Below, one piece after another: positions 40,464-50,387 of a stretch of 64,000 nt of DNA; position 1 is the stretch's first letter; each line of letters starts with the position of its first letter. The stretch covers positions 1,736,001 to 1,800,000 of the forward strand of contig NZ_CP134867.1 of the NCBI RefSeq assembly GCF_031954525.1, given 5' to 3'. This stretch comes from Dyella sp. BiH032 (lineage in GTDB: Bacteria > Pseudomonadota > Gammaproteobacteria > Xanthomonadales > Rhodanobacteraceae). A program made the translations under genes and the position numbers. Under the pieces are notes generated by a model. The model was not told the origin of the DNA. It did no database searches and worked only from the letters and a program-made list of their open reading frames with translations.

Positions 40464-40474
40464 ATGCCCAAAAC

Positions 40475-40519
40475 GGGGTCAGGTTTGCTTTTGGTTCCTC
40501 TGGAAGTAAACCTGACCCC
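40475..40519 (+). repeat. REP-like hairpin GGGGTCAGGTTT, copy i
   Basis: 12-bp arms GGGGTCAGGTTT / AAACCTGACCCC enclosing a 21-nt loop that starts GCTTTTGGTTCCTCTGG. The loop and right arm are identical to copy ii at 42835-42881. It begins 11 bp after the AraC gene and ends 27 bp before the TTG start of the next small gene. Confidence 0.85.
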
Positions 40520-40923: not shown

Positions 40924-41820
40924 TCAGTGGTTGCCGGAATAATCCATCCGCCTGAGATCGTCCAGCAAGCCTGGGCCGCTCGGATGCCAATCCAGAGCCT
41001 TGCGTGTCCACGCGCTCGACGCCAACAGGTCCATGCCGACGAACCCGGCCATCCATCCAAAATGATCTCCCGCATCACTCGGCGGGATGGACGTGACGGG
41101 CACACCCAAGCCCGCACCGATCACTTCGGCGATATCGCGAACACGAATGCCCTCTTCGGCAACGGCGTGATAGCGGGTTCCCGGTTTGCATTTCTCGATC
41201 GCAAGCCGATAGAGCTGCGCCACGTCGAGCACGTGCGCAGCTGGCCATCGGTTGAGCCCTTCGCCGACATAGGCCGATACGCCCTTTGCGCGAGCCACGG
41301 TGATCAAAGGAGTGATAAGGCCTTGCTTCACCGTGTCATGCACTTGCGGAAGCCGCACGACCGACACGGCGACACCGGCCGCGAGCATCTCCGCCCCTGC
41401 GATCTCCGATGCCGACCGCGGGTTGGGATGTTCGGTATTGAAGACATCCTCGGTCGCAGGCTTGCCTGGTAGGGCGCTCCCCATGCCCGTTCCCGACGTG
41501 ATCAGCAGCGGACGGTCGGAACCCACCAGCGCTGAACCCATGGCCTTAATGGCCTGCCGATCCTTTTCGCAGTTGGCGGCAAAGTTGGAAAAGTCGTGAT
41601 CGAACGCGGTGTGGATCACGGCGTCCGCTTTGGCCGCGCCGCTGCGCAGACTATCCAGATCCTCCAGCTGGCCGCGATGCACCTCGGCGCCGGCGGCGGC
41701 GAGCGCACGCGCACCCTCATCCGATCGCGTCATGCCAAGAACGCTATGCCCGGCGGCGAGCAGCTCCGGCACGATCCGGGAGCCGATAAAGCCGGTCGCG
41801 CCGGTCAGGAATATGCGCAT
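40924..41820 (-). CDS. NAD(P)-dependent epimerase/SDR (extended, atypical)
   Basis: 298 aa with GGAG seven bases before ATG. 'MRIFLTGATGFIGSRIVPELL' is the Rossmann cofactor motif; 'ADAVIHTAFDHDFSNFAANCE', 'PLLITSGTG' and 'VSVVRLPQVHD' match NmrA/epimerase-like SDRs. The usual YxxxK is not obvious, as in the atypical (NmrA-like) group. Divergent from an XRE-type regulator whose partner in other genomes is usually such an oxidoreductase. Confidence 0.88.
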   Translation of the reverse strand: MRIFLTGATGFIGSRIVPELLAAGHSVLGMTRSDEGARALAAAGAEVHRGQLEDLDSLRSGAAKADAVIHTAFDHDFSNFAANCEKDRQAIKAMGSALVGSDRPLLITSGTGMGSALPGKPATEDVFNTEHPNPRSASEIAGAEMLAAGVAVSVVRLPQVHDTVKQGLITPLITVARAKGVSAYVGEGLNRWPAAHVLDVAQLYRLAIEKCKPGTRYHAVAEEGIRVRDIAEVIGAGLGVPVTSIPPSDAGDHFGWMAGFVGMDLLASSAWTRKALDWHPSGPGLLDDLRRMDYSGNH

Positions 41821-41918: not shown

Positions 41919-42755
41919 ATGTCCACGCCTAACAGCAATCCACTCGGCATCTACCTGAAAGATAGGCGCAGCCGGCTCGACCCGGCGGCCTTTGGCTTCA
42001 CTGGCGGGCGCAGGCGCACGCCGGGCCTGCGCAGGGAGGAGGTCGCCCAGCGCGCCAACATCAGCCCCACTTGGTACACCTGGCTGGAACAGGGGCGAGG
42101 AGGCGCGCCCTCGGCGGATGTGCTCAACCGTATCGCCGACGGGCTGATGCTGACCGAGCCGGAGCGCGAACACCTCTTCATACTCGGCCTTGGTCACCCA
42201 CCCGAAGTCCGCTACAAAGCCATCGAAGGTGTCACGCCCAGGTTGCAGCGTGTACTCGAAGCGATGGAAGTCAGCCCTGCCATCGTCAAGACCGCCCTGT
42301 GGGATGTCGTGGCCTGGAATCGCGCGGCGGCTGTTGTGCTCACAGACTACGGTGCGCTCCCGCCCGCAGAGCGGAATATTCTGCGGCTGATCTTTTCCAA
42401 TTCACGGGTGCGCGCCGCTCAGGAAGACTGGCAAAGCGTGGCGCGATTCGTCGTCGGCGCGTTTCGTGCAGACGCTGCGCGTGCAGGTGCGGTTGCGGAG
42501 ATCGGCCAGTTCGTTGAAGAGCTGTCCCGGCAGAGCCCCGAGTTTGAAGCGTTATGGCTGGCCAACGACGTCAGCGCTTACGGAGAGGGCGTAAAACGCC
42601 TGCACCATGCCGAACTGGGTCTCCTGGAGCTTGAGTTTTCCACCTTCGCGGTTGATGGACGACCGGATCTGGGCATGATCGTGTACAACCCGGCGACTAG
42701 CGCAGATAAGGATCGGATTCGTGCGTATATCAAGTCACGGGTAGCGGTGGGTTAA
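41919..42755 (+). CDS. Helix-turn-helix regulator with MmyB-like ligand domain
   Basis: 278 aa. 'LGIYLKDRRSRLDPAAFGF', 'RRTPGLRREEVAQRANIS' and 'TWYTWLEQGRG' form the XRE-type HTH; residues 105-270 match the MmyB-like PAS-type ligand domain ('LQRVLEAMEVSPAIVKTALWDVVAWNRAA', read in parts, 'DVSAYGEGVKRLHHAELG'). This family usually represses the divergent oxidoreductase, here the SDR at 40924-41820. Confidence 0.92.
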   Translation: MSTPNSNPLGIYLKDRRSRLDPAAFGFTGGRRRTPGLRREEVAQRANISPTWYTWLEQGRGGAPSADVLNRIADGLMLTEPEREHLFILGLGHPPEVRYKAIEGVTPRLQRVLEAMEVSPAIVKTALWDVVAWNRAAAVVLTDYGALPPAERNILRLIFSNSRVRAAQEDWQSVARFVVGAFRADAARAGAVAEIGQFVEELSRQSPEFEALWLANDVSAYGEGVKRLHHAELGLLELEFSTFAVDGRPDLGMIVYNPATSADKDRIRAYIKSRVAVG

Positions 42756-42834
42756 AGGTCGGCTTGCGGCTACGGATTAAGGGGGGGCGACGCCCTTGCT
42801 GCTTGCGCAGTCTTTGAATTCAAAACGGCGAAAA

Positions 42835-42881
42835 CGGGCCGGGTTTGCTTTTGGTTCCTCTGGAAGTAAACCTGACCGCGG
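42835..42881 (+). repeat. REP-like hairpin, copy ii
   Basis: CGGGCCGGGTTTGC...GTAAACCTGACCGCG: the 34-bp inner part is identical to copy i (40475-40519); the outer arms differ. It lies 79 bp after the XRE-type gene. Confidence 0.8.
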
Positions 42882-43024: not shown

Positions 43025-43378
43025 TCAAGCCTGATCGGATGCCGCGCTTCCTCCGCTCGGTGGTGTCTCGGGCGGATGCGCCTCGCCGGGCTGGGAGGTC
43101 ATGGTCTTTTCTAGTTCCATCCACTGCAGCCGACCCTGCGCAAGCGCTGCGCAGCGGATACCCATGGCGGTCATCGCGGCGATGCCTTCCAAGGAGATGG
43201 ACAGGTGGCGATGATCCAAGGGTTCTTCTTCGTTGATCAGGTCGGCGAGCAATCGCGTGGTGTGCCGTGCGTACTGCAACCACTCGGTGGCATCGCTCAG
43301 CAAGTCGTGCGGCGAGGCATTCGGGTCGGCGTAATAGTCGGCGTTGCGTGATAACCAGCGTTCTCCAAACAGGTTCAT
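43025..43378 (-). CDS. Small DUF3077/DUF6124-like orphan protein
   Basis: 117 aa from MNLFGERWLS, nine bases after AGGAG; an ATG at 43426 lacks a ribosome site. The middle is helical ('SDATEWLQYARHTTRLLADL', 'LSISLEGIAAMTAMGI') and the end is Pro/Ser-rich ('SQPGEAHPPETPPSGGS'). Composition and layout resemble small DUF3077/DUF6124-type proteins found near accessory DNA in Pseudomonas and Xanthomonas, but I am not certain. Confidence 0.5.
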   Translation of the reverse strand: MNLFGERWLSRNADYYADPNASPHDLLSDATEWLQYARHTTRLLADLINEEEPLDHRHLSISLEGIAAMTAMGIRCAALAQGRLQWMELEKTMTSQPGEAHPPETPPSGGSAASDQA

Positions 43379-44294
43379 GTCCTTAAGCTCCTGAAGTGAT
43401 GCCGCGGCTTGGTCCAGGTGCGGCACGCCGAAACAGCCGGGCGTGCCGCGATCACACGGACTCGAAGGCTCACCGACGGCCCATGACTGGGCGCCGGGCG
43501 GCTTGATTGAGAAGTGGATGGGCGTCCGTAAGTTCCGCCGCCGCGCAAGGCGACGCGCCGAGTTTCACGGCTAGGGAACAATCCCTGCGAAAAACACTTA
43601 GGCGCGGTTCTTCAACCGTGTTCGCGAAAGGTGCGAACGGCCCGGATGGGGGGTGAGGATGTCGCCGAGGGGATCGGCGGGCGTGCGGGTGCCGTATGAT
43701 CTGGGTCAGCCATGATCAACTCCAACTAGTTGGTGATGGTTAGCGGGTCGTAGGAGCGCCAACTCCTGCGGCCCGCGCTTCTCGCGGCATCATCGTTGCC
43801 GTGGTTGCCCGAGACACGTCTGGAACCGCTACGCGGGCAACGGCTATGAAGCTAGCAAAAAGGGGTTGGGGTTGTCTGTAGGGCAGTGACTGCGGGATAT
43901 GTCGGAGCGATGTCATTTGGTGATTAGCGTGCATGCTGCGCGGGATGCATCACAGTTACTTTTTCGCTCGAGTTGCATTCGGTGAAACAGGTCGATTCGA
44001 AGATCAGTTTGGCAGTGCAGTTGGTCGATGTGACGATCGGTGTAGCCATTGGGCGGCGAGCTTGCTCATGAGACGGCGAGCAGCCTACTTGATGCCGAGA
44101 GATGCGAGTCTGCACCCGTATCGCAGCTGATCCATTTGCTTCCCGTGATCGAAGCCGAGGAGCAGAATCGCGTCCGCCCGGGGAGCGGCTGATCAATTAT
44201 TTTGCTGCGGTATTCCACAAGCGATAACAGCCAAGGCTTTCGAGATACCGTAGAAATTTTCTGCTCTTCTAACCGACAACAATAGGGGAATACT
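43379..44294. other. AT-richer gene-poor stretch
   Basis: 916 bp. One short minus-strand frame at 43612-43713 (33 codons, starting MADPDHTAPARPPIP) has GGAG six bases before its ATG and could be a leader or a broken gene; nothing else supports it. Longer frames around 43924-44196 lack ribosome sites. Base composition shifts toward AT from about 43.9 kb, marking the left edge of the island with the glycosidase gene. Confidence 0.45.
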
Positions 44295-46079
44295 ATGCGG
44301 TGGCTAAGGCTTGGCAGGGGAATAACTCGGTTCGCTGCTCTTCTTTTGTTTCTTATGGCAGGACGAGTTTTTGCAGATACCGCTTGGGACTTCGGCGGCA
44401 TGTATGGTTACTACAATGGTGGTTCTTATAACAATCCCGCGACGAATTCGACCTCGTGCCCCAGCGGTTACACCTCCTACCTGGTGTATGGAACTCCCAG
44501 TGTCGACTGGTCGATGTACTTCTGTGGGCGCCCACATATTTCCGGGCAGGACTCTCTGTACGACTTTGGCGGTATGGTTGGGCTGGCGGGAAGCACTGCG
44601 TACTATGCGGTCCCGTGGCGCGGGTATTTTTATTACGTTAATCCATTCACTCACACGGACGCTTGTCCTCCGGGGTATACGAGGACTCAGGTGCTGGGCA
44701 CTCCCTCCGTAGATAACGTGCTCTTCTTCTGCTGGCGAATTCATTCTTCCGATACCTCGACTGCCAGCATGTACTTTGGTGGGATGACTGGCGATGGAGG
44801 CACGCCTTACGCAAACCCAGCCACGGGATCAGCCTACACGTGCCCTACGGGATACGTAGCCTATTCAGCCTTAGGCACGCCATCCGTTGACTATCGGTTC
44901 TTCTATTGCGGCATCCCGCAAAACGCGTCGACAGTGCTTGCCGGTGCCGGCAGCCTTGGTGTGGGGGAAACTTTGATAGGAAACGTAGATACCCACGGAT
45001 GGACTATCGATCAGCAGGTGAATGCTCTAAATAGCAATGGAATTAACGCAAGAGTTGTTCGGCTCTGGACTCTCGCAACGGACCTTCTATCAAGCCCTAC
45101 GACGGTAGACGACGCAAAGATGTCTGTCGCACAAAGTGCAGTGGCAAGCTTGGAGAGGTCGGGTGTCACCGTGCTTGGGATGGATGGGACGTATCCGCAC
45201 TGGATGACAGGTGGCACGCATTGGGGGCTTATACCTTGCCGAGATCTCACGCCGGGAAGTCACTATCAAGTGTTCTTGGATAATTTCGAACAATCGTGGG
45301 TTACGCTGGCACATGCGCTCCCGAACGTTTTCTTGTGGGAGCCCGCAAACGAAACAAATGGGATGCTGCGCCCAGATACTGACCAGCAAAATGACCCGTT
45401 GTTTTGCCCTGTTGATCACGGCCCTGAATTCACTTGGGAAGAGGCGGCCGATATCACCACGGACCTCATGTTCCGAGCGCATAGGGCAATACATAGCGAA
45501 ATACCCAGTGCAACGGTATTTATTCCGCCACCGAGTCCTTACCCGCACGGCGATTTCGATCCATCATTCTCGAACATGGCGACGTTCATCTCGCGCATCT
45601 ACCGCAACATCAAGGGCGGTACGTGGCCGAGCACCAACACAAGGGACTATTTCGATGGCGGAAGCTGGCATCCCTACATTGCTGGTGATGCAACTGTGTC
45701 CAGTTGGGTTCAGCCGAATATGACTATGTACAACGTCTTCGCAAACAACGGTGACGGTACATTGCCCATGATATTTTCTGAGACCGGCTACTCTGTATGT
45801 GCGACAGGGTGTGCAACCAACTCGCAATCCGTCGCGGCGGCTTGGATGGCTGATGCCATCAGTCTGAGCCAAGCCAACTTTCCTTGGCTCACTTATTTCA
45901 TCTACTTCCGGGCGTTCCAAGACCCCACGGATCCGACGAGCTCGGGTTTCGGAATGATGTCTTCACCTTCTCAATACCCGGGAAGCAGTTGGTTTCCCAC
46001 GGCAACGTCGAATCAAACCATGCCGCCGTCCGGGTTCTGCTATTTCACCGGATGCAGCTATCCGGTACCGAAGCCGTGA
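44295..46079 (+). CDS. Exported clan GH-A glycosidase with three N-terminal Cys-containing repeats
   Basis: 594 aa with a signal peptide (cleavage near RVFA-DT) and AGGGGA before ATG. Residues ~30-210 hold three copies of a ~55-residue unit with consensus FGGM-G...NP-T...CP-GY....LGTPSVD...F-C, two Cys each (probably one disulfide), a likely carbohydrate- or wall-binding module. The rest is a TIM-barrel of clan GH-A type: 'VFLWEPANETNGML' supplies the acid/base Glu353 after Asn-Glu logic, and 'MIFSETGYSV' supplies the nucleophile Glu496. Conserved 'RVVRLW' and 'WHPYIAGD' fit cellulase/mannanase-like enzymes. Exact family (GH5/39-like) is uncertain. Its lower GC than flanking genes suggests acquisition. 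Confidence 0.7.
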   Translation: MRWLRLGRGITRFAALLLFLMAGRVFADTAWDFGGMYGYYNGGSYNNPATNSTSCPSGYTSYLVYGTPSVDWSMYFCGRPHISGQDSLYDFGGMVGLAGSTAYYAVPWRGYFYYVNPFTHTDACPPGYTRTQVLGTPSVDNVLFFCWRIHSSDTSTASMYFGGMTGDGGTPYANPATGSAYTCPTGYVAYSALGTPSVDYRFFYCGIPQNASTVLAGAGSLGVGETLIGNVDTHGWTIDQQVNALNSNGINARVVRLWTLATDLLSSPTTVDDAKMSVAQSAVASLERSGVTVLGMDGTYPHWMTGGTHWGLIPCRDLTPGSHYQVFLDNFEQSWVTLAHALPNVFLWEPANETNGMLRPDTDQQNDPLFCPVDHGPEFTWEEAADITTDLMFRAHRAIHSEIPSATVFIPPPSPYPHGDFDPSFSNMATFISRIYRNIKGGTWPSTNTRDYFDGGSWHPYIAGDATVSSWVQPNMTMYNVFANNGDGTLPMIFSETGYSVCATGCATNSQSVAAAWMADAISLSQANFPWLTYFIYFRAFQDPTDPTSSGFGMMSSPSQYPGSSWFPTATSNQTMPPSGFCYFTGCSYPVPKP

Positions 46080-46200: not shown

Positions 46201-46211
46201 AAACCGATAAC

Positions 46212-46281
46212 GGGCCGGAGGTAGTTAAGCGTGTTGATCCAGTGCATAGCACCGCTACCTTAACTGCCCCCGGCCCCTTTT
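46212..46281 (+). repeat. Long terminator-like hairpin element, copy a
   Basis: GGGCCGGAGGTAGTTAAGCG ... CTTAACTGCCCCCGGCCCC then TTTT: an ~18-bp stem with a long loop containing GTGTTGATCCAGTGC and a T-tail. Related to copies b and c, all in the same orientation. Copies a and b bracket the ATPase-DUF4435 gene. Confidence 0.85.
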
Positions 46282-46321: not shown

Positions 46322-47983
46322 CTAGTCATTAGGCACTTGAGGAAGTGCGCGGCGCAATGCTGCGATAAGCCCTGGGGCTCGATCATTGAGCAATATCCGG
46401 CTAAGCCACGTTTCGAACGGCCCTCTTTTTGTGTTCCTGAGATGGCTTGCCGCAACGGCCAGCATCCCCTTGTTGTCGAAGATTGACAGAAGCGTCAACA
46501 GATCCTTTTCAGCGATGGCCGCGTGGATCTTCTCCCGCCGCCTCGCGGCAATGGCCTGAATGTTGAGGCCACTTGTTTGCGCAGCATAGGCGGCTTCCAT
46601 TTCGTTAATCGTAGTTTTGCCGCTCAGGTCGGTTTTCTTTAGTGCGTGGTCAATCCGGCGCAGCGAGTGCCGGATCACCGCAGACTCCACGGCCCCATCC
46701 TGCGAGGCAAAATCGAGCAACTTGCTCTTTAACCCGTCGATATGCTCTTGAATGTGATCGGTGGCCACGTGTTCGGCGATTGCAATCTCGCGGCTGACCT
46801 CGGGAAGTAGCAATAGATTCTCTGCTTCGGAGACCGGCAAAACCGCTATCCCGAGCCCCCGGAGGTATGCGGCATCGTCCGTATCATAGTCGTCAGCGTC
46901 GATGACTCCCGCGCAATGAATACGCGTAAACGCAGCATTGGCACGCATCGTCACGACTGAATGGATAACATCCTTGCATGAGCCTCGAGGGACGACTGTC
47001 CATTCAGGGTATGCGCTTCTGTAGATTGCCTTATCTAGGCTGTTCAGATCGCCTTCGACGAAAAGGATTGGGCGACGACTCCCCAGAAGGAGAACGGAGA
47101 GCTCTTCAGAAAAGCCGGTGCCATCTGGGACTGCTTCAATGATCCATTTCGGTCCTGCCTGGGAATAGTCGCGAATTACAAATTTTTGGCCGACGCGCGA
47201 CGCTGCGAATTCGAGATCATGTGTGATGAATGCCAACGCGCAATCGGGTCGTGCATTCTCAAGCTCGTCCCAAAGCCTGTTCATGATTGACCGGTGAATA
47301 TGGAGTTCGGGTTCGTCGATTACGAGGAGCGAATTGTCGGCCGCCACCAGTACCTGGCCAATCAGATAGAAGATTGCCCGCTCACCATCGCTCATTTCAG
47401 AGGCGCTATAGAGCTCTCCACTTCCAGGTACTCGAACCTCAATATTGTCGTCGCTGATCACAAGCTCGCGATGCGGCAACAAGTGCTCCCATATGTTCTT
47501 GAGTCGCTCGAACTTCGTAGCTTGGGCTGCGTGCTCGGCTCCCGAGCGGGCTTTAGTATGAGTAACGAGCGCCGTTTTTGACTGCTCGGCGAAGAGTGCC
47601 TGAACGAGGAAATCAAAATCGTTCAAGAGCGCGACGGCAGCTTTTCCATTCGCCCAGCGATGATTGTGGCGATATTCGATATTGGCACGTTCATCTGCAT
47701 AGCCATAGCGAAGGCCTCTCAGGGCATTGCCTTCGTTGATCTTTGGGACGGCGGGGTCTAGTCCTAATGCTCGATGTGCCGAAATTCGATGAACTTGTTC
47801 TCTGGCTGCATTTTCAATGAATAGAGCGAGTCGAGTCTTTCCACTCCCATTGGCGCCGACGAACGTAGCCGATGTTCCCGGGTCAATGATGATCTCGGAC
47901 GGGGCATCGTTGGTCGGGATGGAAAAGCGAAAGGTCATGTAGTCAAGTCCGTATGGGCCAATTGGCTCACAATGATGACTCAT
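46322..47983 (-). CDS. AAA ATPase-DUF4435 (TOPRIM-like) fusion; merged PARIS-type anti-phage system
   Basis: 553 aa. N-terminal half is an ABC-type/AAA15 ATPase: Walker A 'FVGANGSGKTRLAL' (residues 41-54), signature 'SEMSDGERAIFYL' (near 200), Walker B 'SLLVIDEPELHIH' (218-230) and the H-loop 'FITHD' (His255). From about residue 300 follows DUF4435, a TOPRIM-like nuclease domain: 'RPILFVEGDLNSLDKAIY' (Glu310), 'WTVVPRGSCKDVI', 'AGVIDADDYD' (Asp362/Asp364) and 'VSEAENLLLLPE'. In PARIS, an AAA15 ATPase (AriA) holds a DUF4435 effector (AriB) and releases it when phage anti-restriction proteins are sensed; single-gene merged forms are known. All key residues appear intact. It stands alone between direct hairpin copies a and b. 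A start at residue 16 (MTFRFSIP) is also possible. Alternative: another OLD-like ATPase-nuclease. Confidence 0.72.
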   Translation of the reverse strand: MSHHCEPIGPYGLDYMTFRFSIPTNDAPSEIIIDPGTSATFVGANGSGKTRLALFIENAAREQVHRISAHRALGLDPAVPKINEGNALRGLRYGYADERANIEYRHNHRWANGKAAVALLNDFDFLVQALFAEQSKTALVTHTKARSGAEHAAQATKFERLKNIWEHLLPHRELVISDDNIEVRVPGSGELYSASEMSDGERAIFYLIGQVLVAADNSLLVIDEPELHIHRSIMNRLWDELENARPDCALAFITHDLEFAASRVGQKFVIRDYSQAGPKWIIEAVPDGTGFSEELSVLLLGSRRPILFVEGDLNSLDKAIYRSAYPEWTVVPRGSCKDVIHSVVTMRANAAFTRIHCAGVIDADDYDTDDAAYLRGLGIAVLPVSEAENLLLLPEVSREIAIAEHVATDHIQEHIDGLKSKLLDFASQDGAVESAVIRHSLRRIDHALKKTDLSGKTTINEMEAAYAAQTSGLNIQAIAARRREKIHAAIAEKDLLTLLSIFDNKGMLAVAASHLRNTKRGPFETWLSRILLNDRAPGLIAALRRALPQVPND

Positions 47984-48032
47984 TGGCGGCTAGAACTGGT
48001 CTTGGCCGCTAGGTGAGTAGTATGTCGATAAC

Positions 48033-48095
48033 GGGCCGGAGGTGGTTAAGCGTGTTGGTCCAATACGTGTGCCTTAACTGCCTCCGGCCCTTTTT
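48033..48095 (+). repeat. Long terminator-like hairpin element, copy b
   Basis: GGGCCGGAGGTGGTTAAGCG ... CTTAACTGCCTCCGGCCC then TTTTT: 16 of 18 stem positions pair. It abuts the cupin remnant that starts three bases after the T-run. Confidence 0.88.
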
Positions 48096-48097
48096 CC

Positions 48098-48202
48098 CAC
48101 GGCGTCAGCGCCAATGCCAGCGATACGGAGCCGTCGAAGCTGCTGGCGGTGTTTGTCGTCAATACCGATGAGAAGGTGCTGACGATTCGGGGCCCGAAGT
48201 AA
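48098..48202 (+). pseudogene. C-terminal remnant of a cupin gene
   Basis: 35 codons open to a TAA, with no start codon. The translation 'HGVSANASDTEPSKLLAVFV' and then 'VNTDEKVLTIRGPK' aligns with the end of the intact exported cupin at 33571-33987 ('HHRISRNASKTAPAKLLAVF'), including an identical KLLAVFVV. The upstream two-thirds of the gene are gone and hairpin copy b takes their place. It shows that this junction was created by insertion or deletion. Confidence 0.75.
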
Positions 48203-48260
48203 CGCGCAACCGGCGTGCTTGCTTAGGGCGAGCGATCAGGGGTTGTCAGTTGGTGCTCGT

Positions 48261-48316
48261 AAGCGTGTTGGTCCAATGCATAGCACCGCTGCCTTAACTG
48301 CCTCCGGCTCCGTTTT
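48261..48316 (+). repeat. Long hairpin element, copy c (left arm truncated)
   Basis: AAGCGTGTTGGTCCAATGC ... GCCTTAACTGCCTCCGGCTCC then GTTTT. The loop matches copies a and b (GCGTGTTGGTCCAA, ATAGCACCGCT); most of the left arm GGGCCGGAGG is missing. Confidence 0.75.
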
Positions 48317-48558
48317 CCAGGCCATTGCAGGACCAGCGCGTTAACTGTGAGCTATCTCTCAAATTTGCGTAGTCCAAAGACTACAGGCAGGAAATTGCGC
48401 CACAACGGACGCTTAGTGGCGCCTTTGTTTTCACAATCCGTGCACGGAATATCTCGCTGATTTTGCAAGATATTTCGAGCGGCGGCCGATTGACCGTCAC
48501 CGGTTCCATCTCCAAGTATCCAGCGCCGAAAGGGGGCATCACGAAAGGATCTTTTTGC

Positions 48559-49506
48559 ATGGAAATCGGGGTTCGCTCGGCGCTCTTAGCACTTACGTTG
48601 CTCGCTTCCTCGCTGGTCTCAGCACACGCTCATGCAGGTGTCACCACCAGCCTTCCTCATCCCAACCTATTGCCTTCGTGTGGAGAGGGAGGGGACCCGT
48701 CACCGCCGATCAACGAGGTAGTACGGATGCGACCAGCGATGACGTTGGGTAGAACGCCAAGCGAGATCGACGGAAATTTCGCAGGGGTCATTGAAAACAA
48801 TTTCACCCACGGCTCTGCATCGCTCGTTCTCTCGCGGCTGACCGACAAGGAACTGGCGGGGATTGCGCGCTTGTACAGGCAGACCAACGCTGGGCGGCCG
48901 CCGAAGCTGCTGGATGTCTTGGCTTCGCGGCTCACGGCGAAAGAGCTTGTTCGCGTCGCGGGTGTATTCGGGGTCAACGACGTCAATGCCGCCGTTCAAC
49001 GCTCGGCGTCACATTCGGTCGCGTCGATGTACGCCGCCCGGGTAGCCACAGGAGAAGTCACGATTCCGACAACGATCATGCCCATGTCTGGTCCGGCACC
49101 GACCCGGTACATGACTCTCGAGGAGATCTATCTGGAATTCCGAACCGCGCCGGTCGGAAGCTTGGGACCGGCTGCCGCGTTCTCAGAGACCGTCATTTAT
49201 GCCGGTGGCCAAGTCGCCGCGGCCGGAGCCGTAGGCTGGAAAATCGGCTCTGAGGTGGGCGACCTCATTCAGGAATACGATCCCTCGCTATGGGATGCCA
49301 TCGGCGGGACGGTCGCTGGTGTGGCCGACCGTATTCAGAGCGCAGCAGATGCCGTGACCAACAGCTCTGGTGTTCAGCGGGGTATCCAGGAGCACAATGC
49401 TGACGGCATGTTTCAGTACCCCGTATCGTCAAGTAGCGACCCCTACGGTGACTGGGATGCGACATGGGACTTGGGCAACGATATAGGCGATGGCTGCTTT
49501 GACTGA
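48559..49506 (+). CDS. Exported protein of unknown function with Gly/Ala-rich hydrophobic segment
   Basis: 315 aa; ATG nine bases after AAAGGA (the frame is open from 48463 without support). Residues 1-30 are a signal peptide (MEIGVRSALLALTLLASSLV, cleavage near AHAHA-GV). The mature part has a helical region ('LVLSRLTDKELAGIARLYRQ', 'LASRLTAKELVRVAGVFG'), a Gly/Ala-rich hydrophobic stretch ('IYAGGQVAAAGAVGWKIGS') and an acidic, aromatic end ('DPYGDWDATWDLGNDIGDG'). The glycine-rich stretch followed by an acidic C-terminus recalls bacteriocin-like proteins. It is 9 bp before a two-helix membrane-protein gene, so a toxin/immunity or secretion pair is possible. No family recognised. Confidence 0.65.
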   Translation: MEIGVRSALLALTLLASSLVSAHAHAGVTTSLPHPNLLPSCGEGGDPSPPINEVVRMRPAMTLGRTPSEIDGNFAGVIENNFTHGSASLVLSRLTDKELAGIARLYRQTNAGRPPKLLDVLASRLTAKELVRVAGVFGVNDVNAAVQRSASHSVASMYAARVATGEVTIPTTIMPMSGPAPTRYMTLEEIYLEFRTAPVGSLGPAAAFSETVIYAGGQVAAAGAVGWKIGSEVGDLIQEYDPSLWDAIGGTVAGVADRIQSAADAVTNSSGVQRGIQEHNADGMFQYPVSSSSDPYGDWDATWDLGNDIGDGCFD

Positions 49507-49515
49507 GGTGTGGCA

Positions 49516-49839
49516 ATGATTGCTCGGTGGCTTGGGTTACCAGATAGGCGAGGCGCGTGGATCTTCGCACTATCGGCACTTGTTACGCTGGCCTTGCTGC
49601 TTCTGGCTATGCATGGATCAAAGGAGCATCGGGTGAATCTTCTTTTCGATGCTGGCCTCGCATGTTTTGTTGGGTCAGCGCTCCTGGGTCGGGCATGGCG
49701 CGGCCTAGCCAAGACGCTGCCGGAAATCTACAACGAGAAGCTCAAGAGCGGCCGGCGCATGTCCGCGGCGGAAAAACTGCTAGGCGTCCTTTGTATTGGA
49801 CTCATTAGCCTGGCGTTCTACGTCCAGTTCGCCACTTGA
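49516..49839 (+). CDS. Small membrane protein (2-3 TM), partner of the preceding exported protein
   Basis: 107 aa; ATG seven bases after GAGG. Hydrophobic segments at about residues 14-33 ('AWIFALSALVTLALLLLAM') and 44-58 ('LLFDAGLACFVGSALLG'), and again at 88-105 ('LLGVLCIGLISLAFYVQF'). Basic residues in between ('RRGAW', 'KLKSGRRMSAAEK') help fix topology. Nine bases after the exported-protein gene and followed by a strong terminator, so the two form a closed operon. Confidence 0.65.
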   Translation: MIARWLGLPDRRGAWIFALSALVTLALLLLAMHGSKEHRVNLLFDAGLACFVGSALLGRAWRGLAKTLPEIYNEKLKSGRRMSAAEKLLGVLCIGLISLAFYVQFAT

Positions 49840-50012: not shown

Positions 50013-50387
50013 GTGAGCCAGGTGGAAGACGTTGCCGGCCTGTTGAAGAAATTCCAGAAGGAGCTGTCAGCGGGCACCGTGTCCCTGGTGCTGCTGGCGG
50101 TGTTGGGCCAGTCGAAGCAGCCGATGTACGGCTATCAGATCGCCAAGCGGCTGGAAGAGGTGGGGGAGGGGGTGCTCGCGGGGAAGCAGAGCGCGCTGTA
50201 TCCGGTGCTGCGCAACCTCGAGGCCTACGGTCTGCTGGAGAGTGAAGTCGAGCCCTCGGTGAGTGGCCCGCCGCGCCGCTATTACCGCATCACGAAGCTG
50301 GGGCGCGAGGTGCTGCGCCAGTGGGTGGCTGCGTGGAACGCCACGCGCGATTCCGTCGATACCGTTTTGCAAGGAGGGGTGACATGA
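50013..50387 (+). CDS. PadR-family transcriptional regulator
   Basis: 124 aa from GTG (a second GTG at 50022 has AAGGGTGA in front and may be the true start). 'LSAGTVSLVLLAVLGQSKQP' with 'MYGYQIAKRLEE', 'KQSALYPVLRNLEAYGLLES' and 'RRYYRITKLGREVL' form the PadR winged helix. Its stop overlaps the start of the next gene as ATGA, a common PadR-sensor arrangement. Confidence 0.92.
   Translation: MSQVEDVAGLLKKFQKELSAGTVSLVLLAVLGQSKQPMYGYQIAKRLEEVGEGVLAGKQSALYPVLRNLEAYGLLESEVEPSVSGPPRRYYRITKLGREVLRQWVAAWNATRDSVDTVLQGGVT

Follow-up and report, generated by a model that had tools for sequence, protein, structure and literature searches.

The question raised by this locus is whether a single protein chain can serve as a complete PARIS anti-phage system and, if so, how it would be switched on. 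According to the published model, the PARIS protein AriB is activated by its release from AriA, a step open to a fused protein only if it is cut. In a window of 64,000 nucleotides from Dyella sp. BiH032 (contig NZ_CP134867.1, positions 1,736,001 to 1,800,000; coordinates below are those of the window unless stated otherwise), a reverse-strand open reading frame (ORF) at 46322-47983 encodes such a fusion, designated AriAB. We regard it, with a probability of approximately 0.7, as a horizontally acquired single-gene PARIS system of the AAA_21 + DUF4435 type, which would act as an abortive-infection tRNase without releasing its nuclease part.

The ORF comprises 553 codons uninterrupted by stops and is present as a single copy in the host genome (5.25 Mb searched). 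In Pfam, it matched AAA_21 at 4.2e-12 and, at residues 303-401, DUF4435 at 1e-5 with 25.9 bits, narrowly under the Pfam cut-off of 27; P0002, the database copy of the protein, is annotated with PF14491, PF13175, and PF13304. A first-pass annotation of this DNA had described an ATPase-DUF4435 fusion in one chain and had staked that claim on DUF4435 lying after residue 300, where it was found. The merged AriAB profile of PADLOC, PDLC02982, was the top match by a wide margin, covering residues 16-550 with 452 bits and an E-value of 6.9e-136. Among the PADLOC families listed (25 of 54), the runner-up was AriA at 59 bits, and profiles of Septu (PtuA), Gabija (GajA), and AbiLi scored approximately 20-34 bits, in every case on the ATPase part. 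The C-terminal half alone matched PDLC02982 at 2.4e-48, the second merged AriAB profile PDLC02981 at 1.3e-4, and the AriB profile PDLC02983 at 4.2e-4. These comparisons with AriA, AriB, and merged PARIS profiles, which the first-pass annotation had proposed as a check, supported its identification of the gene as merged PARIS, and 25 NCBIfam families matched the protein, none of them close to its cut-off.

Membership in merged PARIS was judged on four features, all of which are present: AAA_21 or AAA_15 together with DUF4435 in one ORF, a full-length AriAB match, intact ATPase motifs, and a Toprim Glu with an Asp-x-Asp motif. Two-gene PARIS has separate ariA and ariB genes, and one continuous ORF was found here. 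The length of 553 residues assigned at first pass is correct for the ORF, but its start was not upheld: in alignment A1, 26 of the 30 relatives begin at Met16, one begins at +2 residues, and three begin further upstream, and the real start is therefore probably Met16, giving a protein of 538 amino acids (aa). Residue numbers in the present study follow the 553-codon ORF, and 15 is to be subtracted for P0002.

A broad alignment was composed of 56 sequences, namely, the Dyella protein and 55 others at 37-84% identity, all of which matched PDLC02982 and 28 of which matched the AriB profile at 1e-5. The Walker A, signature, Walker B, and H-loop motifs and the residues Glu310 and Asp362/Asp364, which had been pointed out beforehand, were invariant in 56/56 at the tested positions (Walker A Gly and Lys, signature Ser and Gly, Walker B Asp and Glu, the H-loop His, and the three Toprim-type acidic residues), as were Glu386 and Glu388; the signature Asp was retained in 55/56. 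Glu310, Asp362, and Asp364 are the putative Toprim catalytic residues, assigned by motif. In two-gene PARIS, mutations in predicted ATPase or Toprim residues abolish defence (PMC9122126), and tRNA cleavage fragments are not produced by AriB E26A (PMC12409363). The coordinates of these and other features are summarized in Table 1.

Table 1. Features of the AriAB gene and its surroundings, in window coordinates.
Feature	Position	Strand	Basis or remark
Merged PARIS gene (AriAB), probable 538 aa	46322..47938	-	PADLOC PDLC02982 6.9e-136; start kept in 26/30
15-codon ORF extension upstream, probably untranslated	47939..47983	-	not reached by 27/30 A1 relatives
ABC/AAA (AAA_21-type) ATPase part, ~residues 16-300	47084..47938	-	profile matches
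Walker A GANGSGKT, residues 43-50	47834..47857	-	sequence and alignment
ABC signature-like MSDGER, residues 197-202	47378..47395	-	sequence and alignment
Walker B LLVIDE, residues 219-224	47312..47329	-	sequence and alignment
H-loop His255	47219..47221	-	alignment
DUF4435/Toprim nuclease part (AriB-like), ~residues 301-553	46325..47083	-	Pfam DUF4435 1e-5; AriB PDLC02983 4.2e-4 on C-terminal half
Toprim Glu310 (putative)	47054..47056	-	invariant 56/56
Toprim Asp362-x-Asp364 (putative)	46892..46900	-	invariant 56/56
Glu386-x-Glu388, conserved, Toprim part	46820..46828	-	invariant 56/56
Palindromic repeat copy 1, 3' side of gene	46205..46281	n/a	
Palindromic repeat copy 2, 5' side of gene	48026..48096	n/a	
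Partial repeat copy 3, left arm absent	48259..48315	n/a	
NAD-dependent epimerase-like gene	40924-41820		
Regulator genes	41919-42755 and 50013-50387		
Flanking ORF, secreted-looking by eye	44295-46079		no confident family
Flanking ORF	48463-49506		no confident family
Flanking ORF	49510-49839		no confident family

The single-chain ATPase-Toprim layout is also that of OLD enzymes, and the protein might function in the mode of OLD classes 1 and 2 (OLD, GajA), in which a fused ATPase-Toprim nuclease cuts invader DNA and the architecture alone is common to PARIS. A review leaves undecided whether fused AriAB forms a separate class or differs from class 1 OLD (PMC10568477). The ABC-type ATPase core is indeed common to the Dyella protein, class 1 OLD, GajA, and PtuA, and yields weak GajA and PtuA scores; however, these scores are confined to the ATPase, whereas the nuclease part differs. 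The C-terminal part matches DUF4435, and neither PF20469 (name from PMC10952713) nor any other OLD-type Toprim family was present among the five Pfam families up to E = 1. Furthermore, GajA reached 24 bits against 452 for the merged AriAB profile, and a helicase partner such as GajB was absent from the eight neighbouring ORFs (Pfam). The cleavage of invader DNA in an OLD-like manner is consequently regarded as unlikely.

Merged PARIS is not new, and the Dyella gene is, as judged from its sequence, a further member of the described AAA_21 + DUF4435 form. Rousset et al. 2022 (PMC9122126) report that ariAB is encoded either by two separate genes or by one fused gene, with profiles built from 10 AAA_15+DUF4435 and 10 AAA_21+DUF4435 fusions, and Belukhina et al. 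also mention that AriA and AriB are fused in some cases. Since the fused form has already been catalogued there (PMC9122126), the expectation that the subtype would be new information was overstated. Among the openly licensed papers listed, no experimental study of merged PARIS was found, which is not to deny that one exists. Domain order, length class, the full-length match, and the status of a loner gene are the same as in catalogued merged PARIS (PDLC02982; Rousset et al. 2022), from which no architectural difference was recognisable; what Dyella adds is a further host and a repeat-bracketed site. The other merged profile, PDLC02981 (694 positions), also represents an AriA-AriB fusion and is the longer profile, and the Dyella protein scored 46.5 bits against it, compared with 452 for PDLC02982. 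The two-gene PARIS of E. coli B185 likewise consists of an ATPase and a DUF4435/Toprim protein, the presumed sensor and tRNase; in contrast, the Dyella protein is fused, its ATPase part has approximately 285 aa versus 464 aa in the solved AriA, and the release of AriB is impossible unless the chain is cut.

The functional hallmarks of PARIS are phage protection by growth arrest, an anti-restriction trigger such as Ocr, and tRNA cleavage at positions 40/41. As described in two articles on the two-gene system, an AriA hexamer keeps three AriB inactive at rest, and the binding of a phage protein, such as Ocr, to AriA is followed by the departure of AriB, which dimerises and cuts tRNAs (PMC11455837; PMC12409363). 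By analogy with two-gene PARIS, the merged protein may self-assemble via its ATPase domains while its Toprim domains are kept inactive, and the ATPase part would sense a phage protein. An ATP-dependent rearrangement may then allow the tethered Toprim domains to pair without leaving the chain, a step that the fusion itself suggests and that we propose because AriB could leave a fused chain only if the chain were cut. Again by analogy, the paired domains would cleave a limited set of tRNAs, translation would halt, and the infected cell would be sacrificed.

Several results weigh against this interpretation. Among the PDB matches listed, none was named as the solved AriA for the protein (10 matches) or its ATPase half (24 matches), nor was any such name found among the best 60 of 229 matches to the family profile, and none of the six matches to the profile of the C-terminal half was named as the solved AriB; the transfer of the tRNase mechanism thus spans a wide gap. 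As the C-terminal half gave no alignment to AriB, the lysines K60 and K64 of B185 AriB have no assigned counterparts in the Dyella protein. The gene also stands alone, as noted at first pass, with no defence gene among the eight neighbouring ORFs (Pfam) and no PADLOC match in the three flanking ORFs of Table 1. At seven loci of relatives, 0/10 neighbour proteins (10 of 71 ORFs) matched PADLOC, and one of these 10, at locus L008, is a NACHT NTPase. A different setting was observed on a plasmid of Paraburkholderia sabiae (L110, 1-1938), in which a DUF4435 gene that aligns with AriAB over most of its length lies directly behind another DUF4435-annotated gene, a possible two-effector arrangement.

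Regarding the trigger, residues 333-446 of AriA (464 residues in the solved protein) align with residues 144-260 of an E. coli plasmid relative, which in turn align with approximately 152-262 of P0002, indicating that approximately 180 N-terminal-side residues of AriA are missing in the Dyella protein; this bridge is approximate because the plasmid relative matches AriA at E 0.009-0.022 only. Acidic triggers are thought to be bound by positive residues of AriA (PMC11455837). The net charge of the ATPase part was -10 in the Dyella protein and negative in 55/56 sequences (range -17 to +2), which is a weak argument on the nature of the trigger. The host genome had no match to HsdR or N6_Mtase, in a search that did not extend to BREX or to restriction systems of other types. 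Within the order, HsdR was found in 2/6 AriAB genomes (G072 and G281) versus 185/398 overall; there was no sign of coupling between AriAB and restriction, but six genomes are too few to exclude coupling, and the count does not show that carriers avoid restriction. Since neither type I family was matched and the solved AriA far exceeds the Dyella ATPase part in length, an Ocr-type trigger is not assured. We tentatively suggest that short merged PARIS may be a release-free switch, in which the fused Toprim part is activated in place within the ATPase oligomer by a trigger unlike Ocr, because approximately 180 AriA residues are missing, the ATPase part is acidic in 55/56 sequences, type I families were not detected in the host, and 4/6 carriers in the order are without HsdR.

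The family is large and conserved: of 7999 scored candidates, 2685 were relatives at E <= 0.001, by which chance is excluded. They include records from Xanthomonas, Stenotrophomonas, Rhodanobacter, Pseudomonas, and Burkholderia, as well as rhodobacteral, Bacteroidota, and cyanobacterial ones, and the closest proteins, P0003 and P0004, are 84 and 79% identical, respectively. Matches were obtained in 54 of 72,556 plasmid records (31 of them covering 80% or more of the query, and none reaching 60% identity) and in 2 of 50,697 phage records, which belong to a single Oenococcus phage (24% identity). The protein also strongly matched PHROG 25246 (residues 40-514, 5.9e-93), a phage family in the moron category that is annotated as an ABC transporter but not named PARIS, and relatives are thus carried on phages or prophages.

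Among close relatives, the presence of AriAB is patchy. It was absent from 5/5 other Dyella genomes compared, a search of 60 relative genomes returned only weak partial matches in two, and 6/398 genomes of the order, the host included, carried it at E <= 1e-60. This distribution is unlike that of a housekeeping gene, and a role apart from phages, like the one suggested for an OLD-family ATPase of archaeal origin, is hardly credible. In a DNA comparison with the five congeners, shared sequence extended to approximately 36.9 kb in two and resumed at approximately 49.93 kb in all five; the interval between the shared flanks was 13.0 kb in the host, approximately 2.8 kb in congener G003, and 9.0 kb in G004, and in G001, G002, and G005 (stretches of 40, 20, and 40 kb compared) the right side alone aligned near the locus. 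The gene is accordingly placed in a region that is variable among close relatives. The low-GC (guanine plus cytosine) island described at first pass is real, with a GC content of 0.553 over 44-50 kb and 0.666 over 50-64 kb, but has no sharp left edge, the value over 38-44 kb being 0.620.

Repeats of approximately 70 bp, which are direct copies of one palindromic element, flank AriAB on both sides. Their core pattern had three matches in the window versus 0.00 in shuffles, and no further copy was present in the whole genome at <=2 mismatches. The single-strand folding z scores of copies 1 and 2 were -3.4 and -3.9 on the minus strand and -2.6 and -4.6 on the plus strand, while copy 3 showed no strong folding on the one strand tested (0.21). 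A 3' remnant of a cupin-domain gene at 48098-48211 directly follows copy 2, and similarity begins at 48097-48098 in all 10 records listed of 161 (<=89.5% identity; cupin annotation in four of the 10). Because the cupin 3' end abuts copy 2 and its 5' part is missing, this boundary looks like a recombination junction.

An integron cassette was considered and rejected, as no integron integrase match was obtained above the model cut-off; two recombinase genes fell below it, and the same model gave matches below the cut-off in 14/14 control genomes. By eye, the repeats lacked the attC end consensus and, thus, were not called attC. Outside the host, single 2-mismatch matches to the pattern were found in three of 60 relatives (backward control, also three) and single matches in six of 397 other genomes of the order (control, three), while viral contigs held six exact 17-mers of the pattern. 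No outside match extended over the repeat: none of the other loci compared scored above 50 of 140, and the six loci of the order had a maximum of 43. In 43/48 relatives' loci, covering flanks of 1500 bp or as much as the contig provided, there were no repeats like those of Dyella; the flank check left out L040, L042, L048, L052, and L053, which are partial matches. Above-threshold direct repeats were present only in L011 (20 nt) and L036 (62 nt), both dissimilar. Given the lack of similar repeats beside the other merged PARIS genes compared, they are probably a property of the site and not of the system, with a possible cassette-like or recombination role.

A gene that stands alone next to a truncated cupin fragment may be a resident orphan that has lost its defence function, for example, one that has been silent since its insertion, and sigma-70 promoter matches in 45.9-48.7 kb numbered 0 versus 1.5 expected in shuffles. 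However, the promoter scan relied on a consensus and is a weak test, and the gene is full length, stop-free, and has retained the tested motifs, which makes the loss of function improbable.

Other features of the window lie outside the gene. A dispersed repeat of approximately 600 bp at 43269-43894 has many copies in congeners G003 and G004 and five further long copies in the host genome (at 2403867, 1195623, 4668132, 4533473, and 531806); it contains the start of a small ORF at 43025-43426 (-) with approximately 470 bp of upstream DNA, and a similar small protein was found at 1/5 other copies examined. Within this repeat, Rfam gave one match below threshold, to the antisense RNA of plasmid R1162, at 43706-43777 (-; 31 bits versus a cut-off of 55); it is probably due to chance and was the only RNA family match in 43-51 kb, with none at the AriAB gene. 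A 47-bp stretch occurs twice at 94% identity (42831-42877 and 40470-40517). The DNA at 48623-49566, over the ORF 48463-49506, for which no Pfam family was found, has a 70% identical paralogue at 613281-614222 of the host genome.

In other respects an ordinary annotation, this locus offers a clean and compact case of merged PARIS whose host genome matched neither of two type I restriction families. Since the fusion blocks release, this member would directly test whether the release of AriB is essential, and, its host being without a match to these two families, the same member would test whether PARIS always guards restriction.
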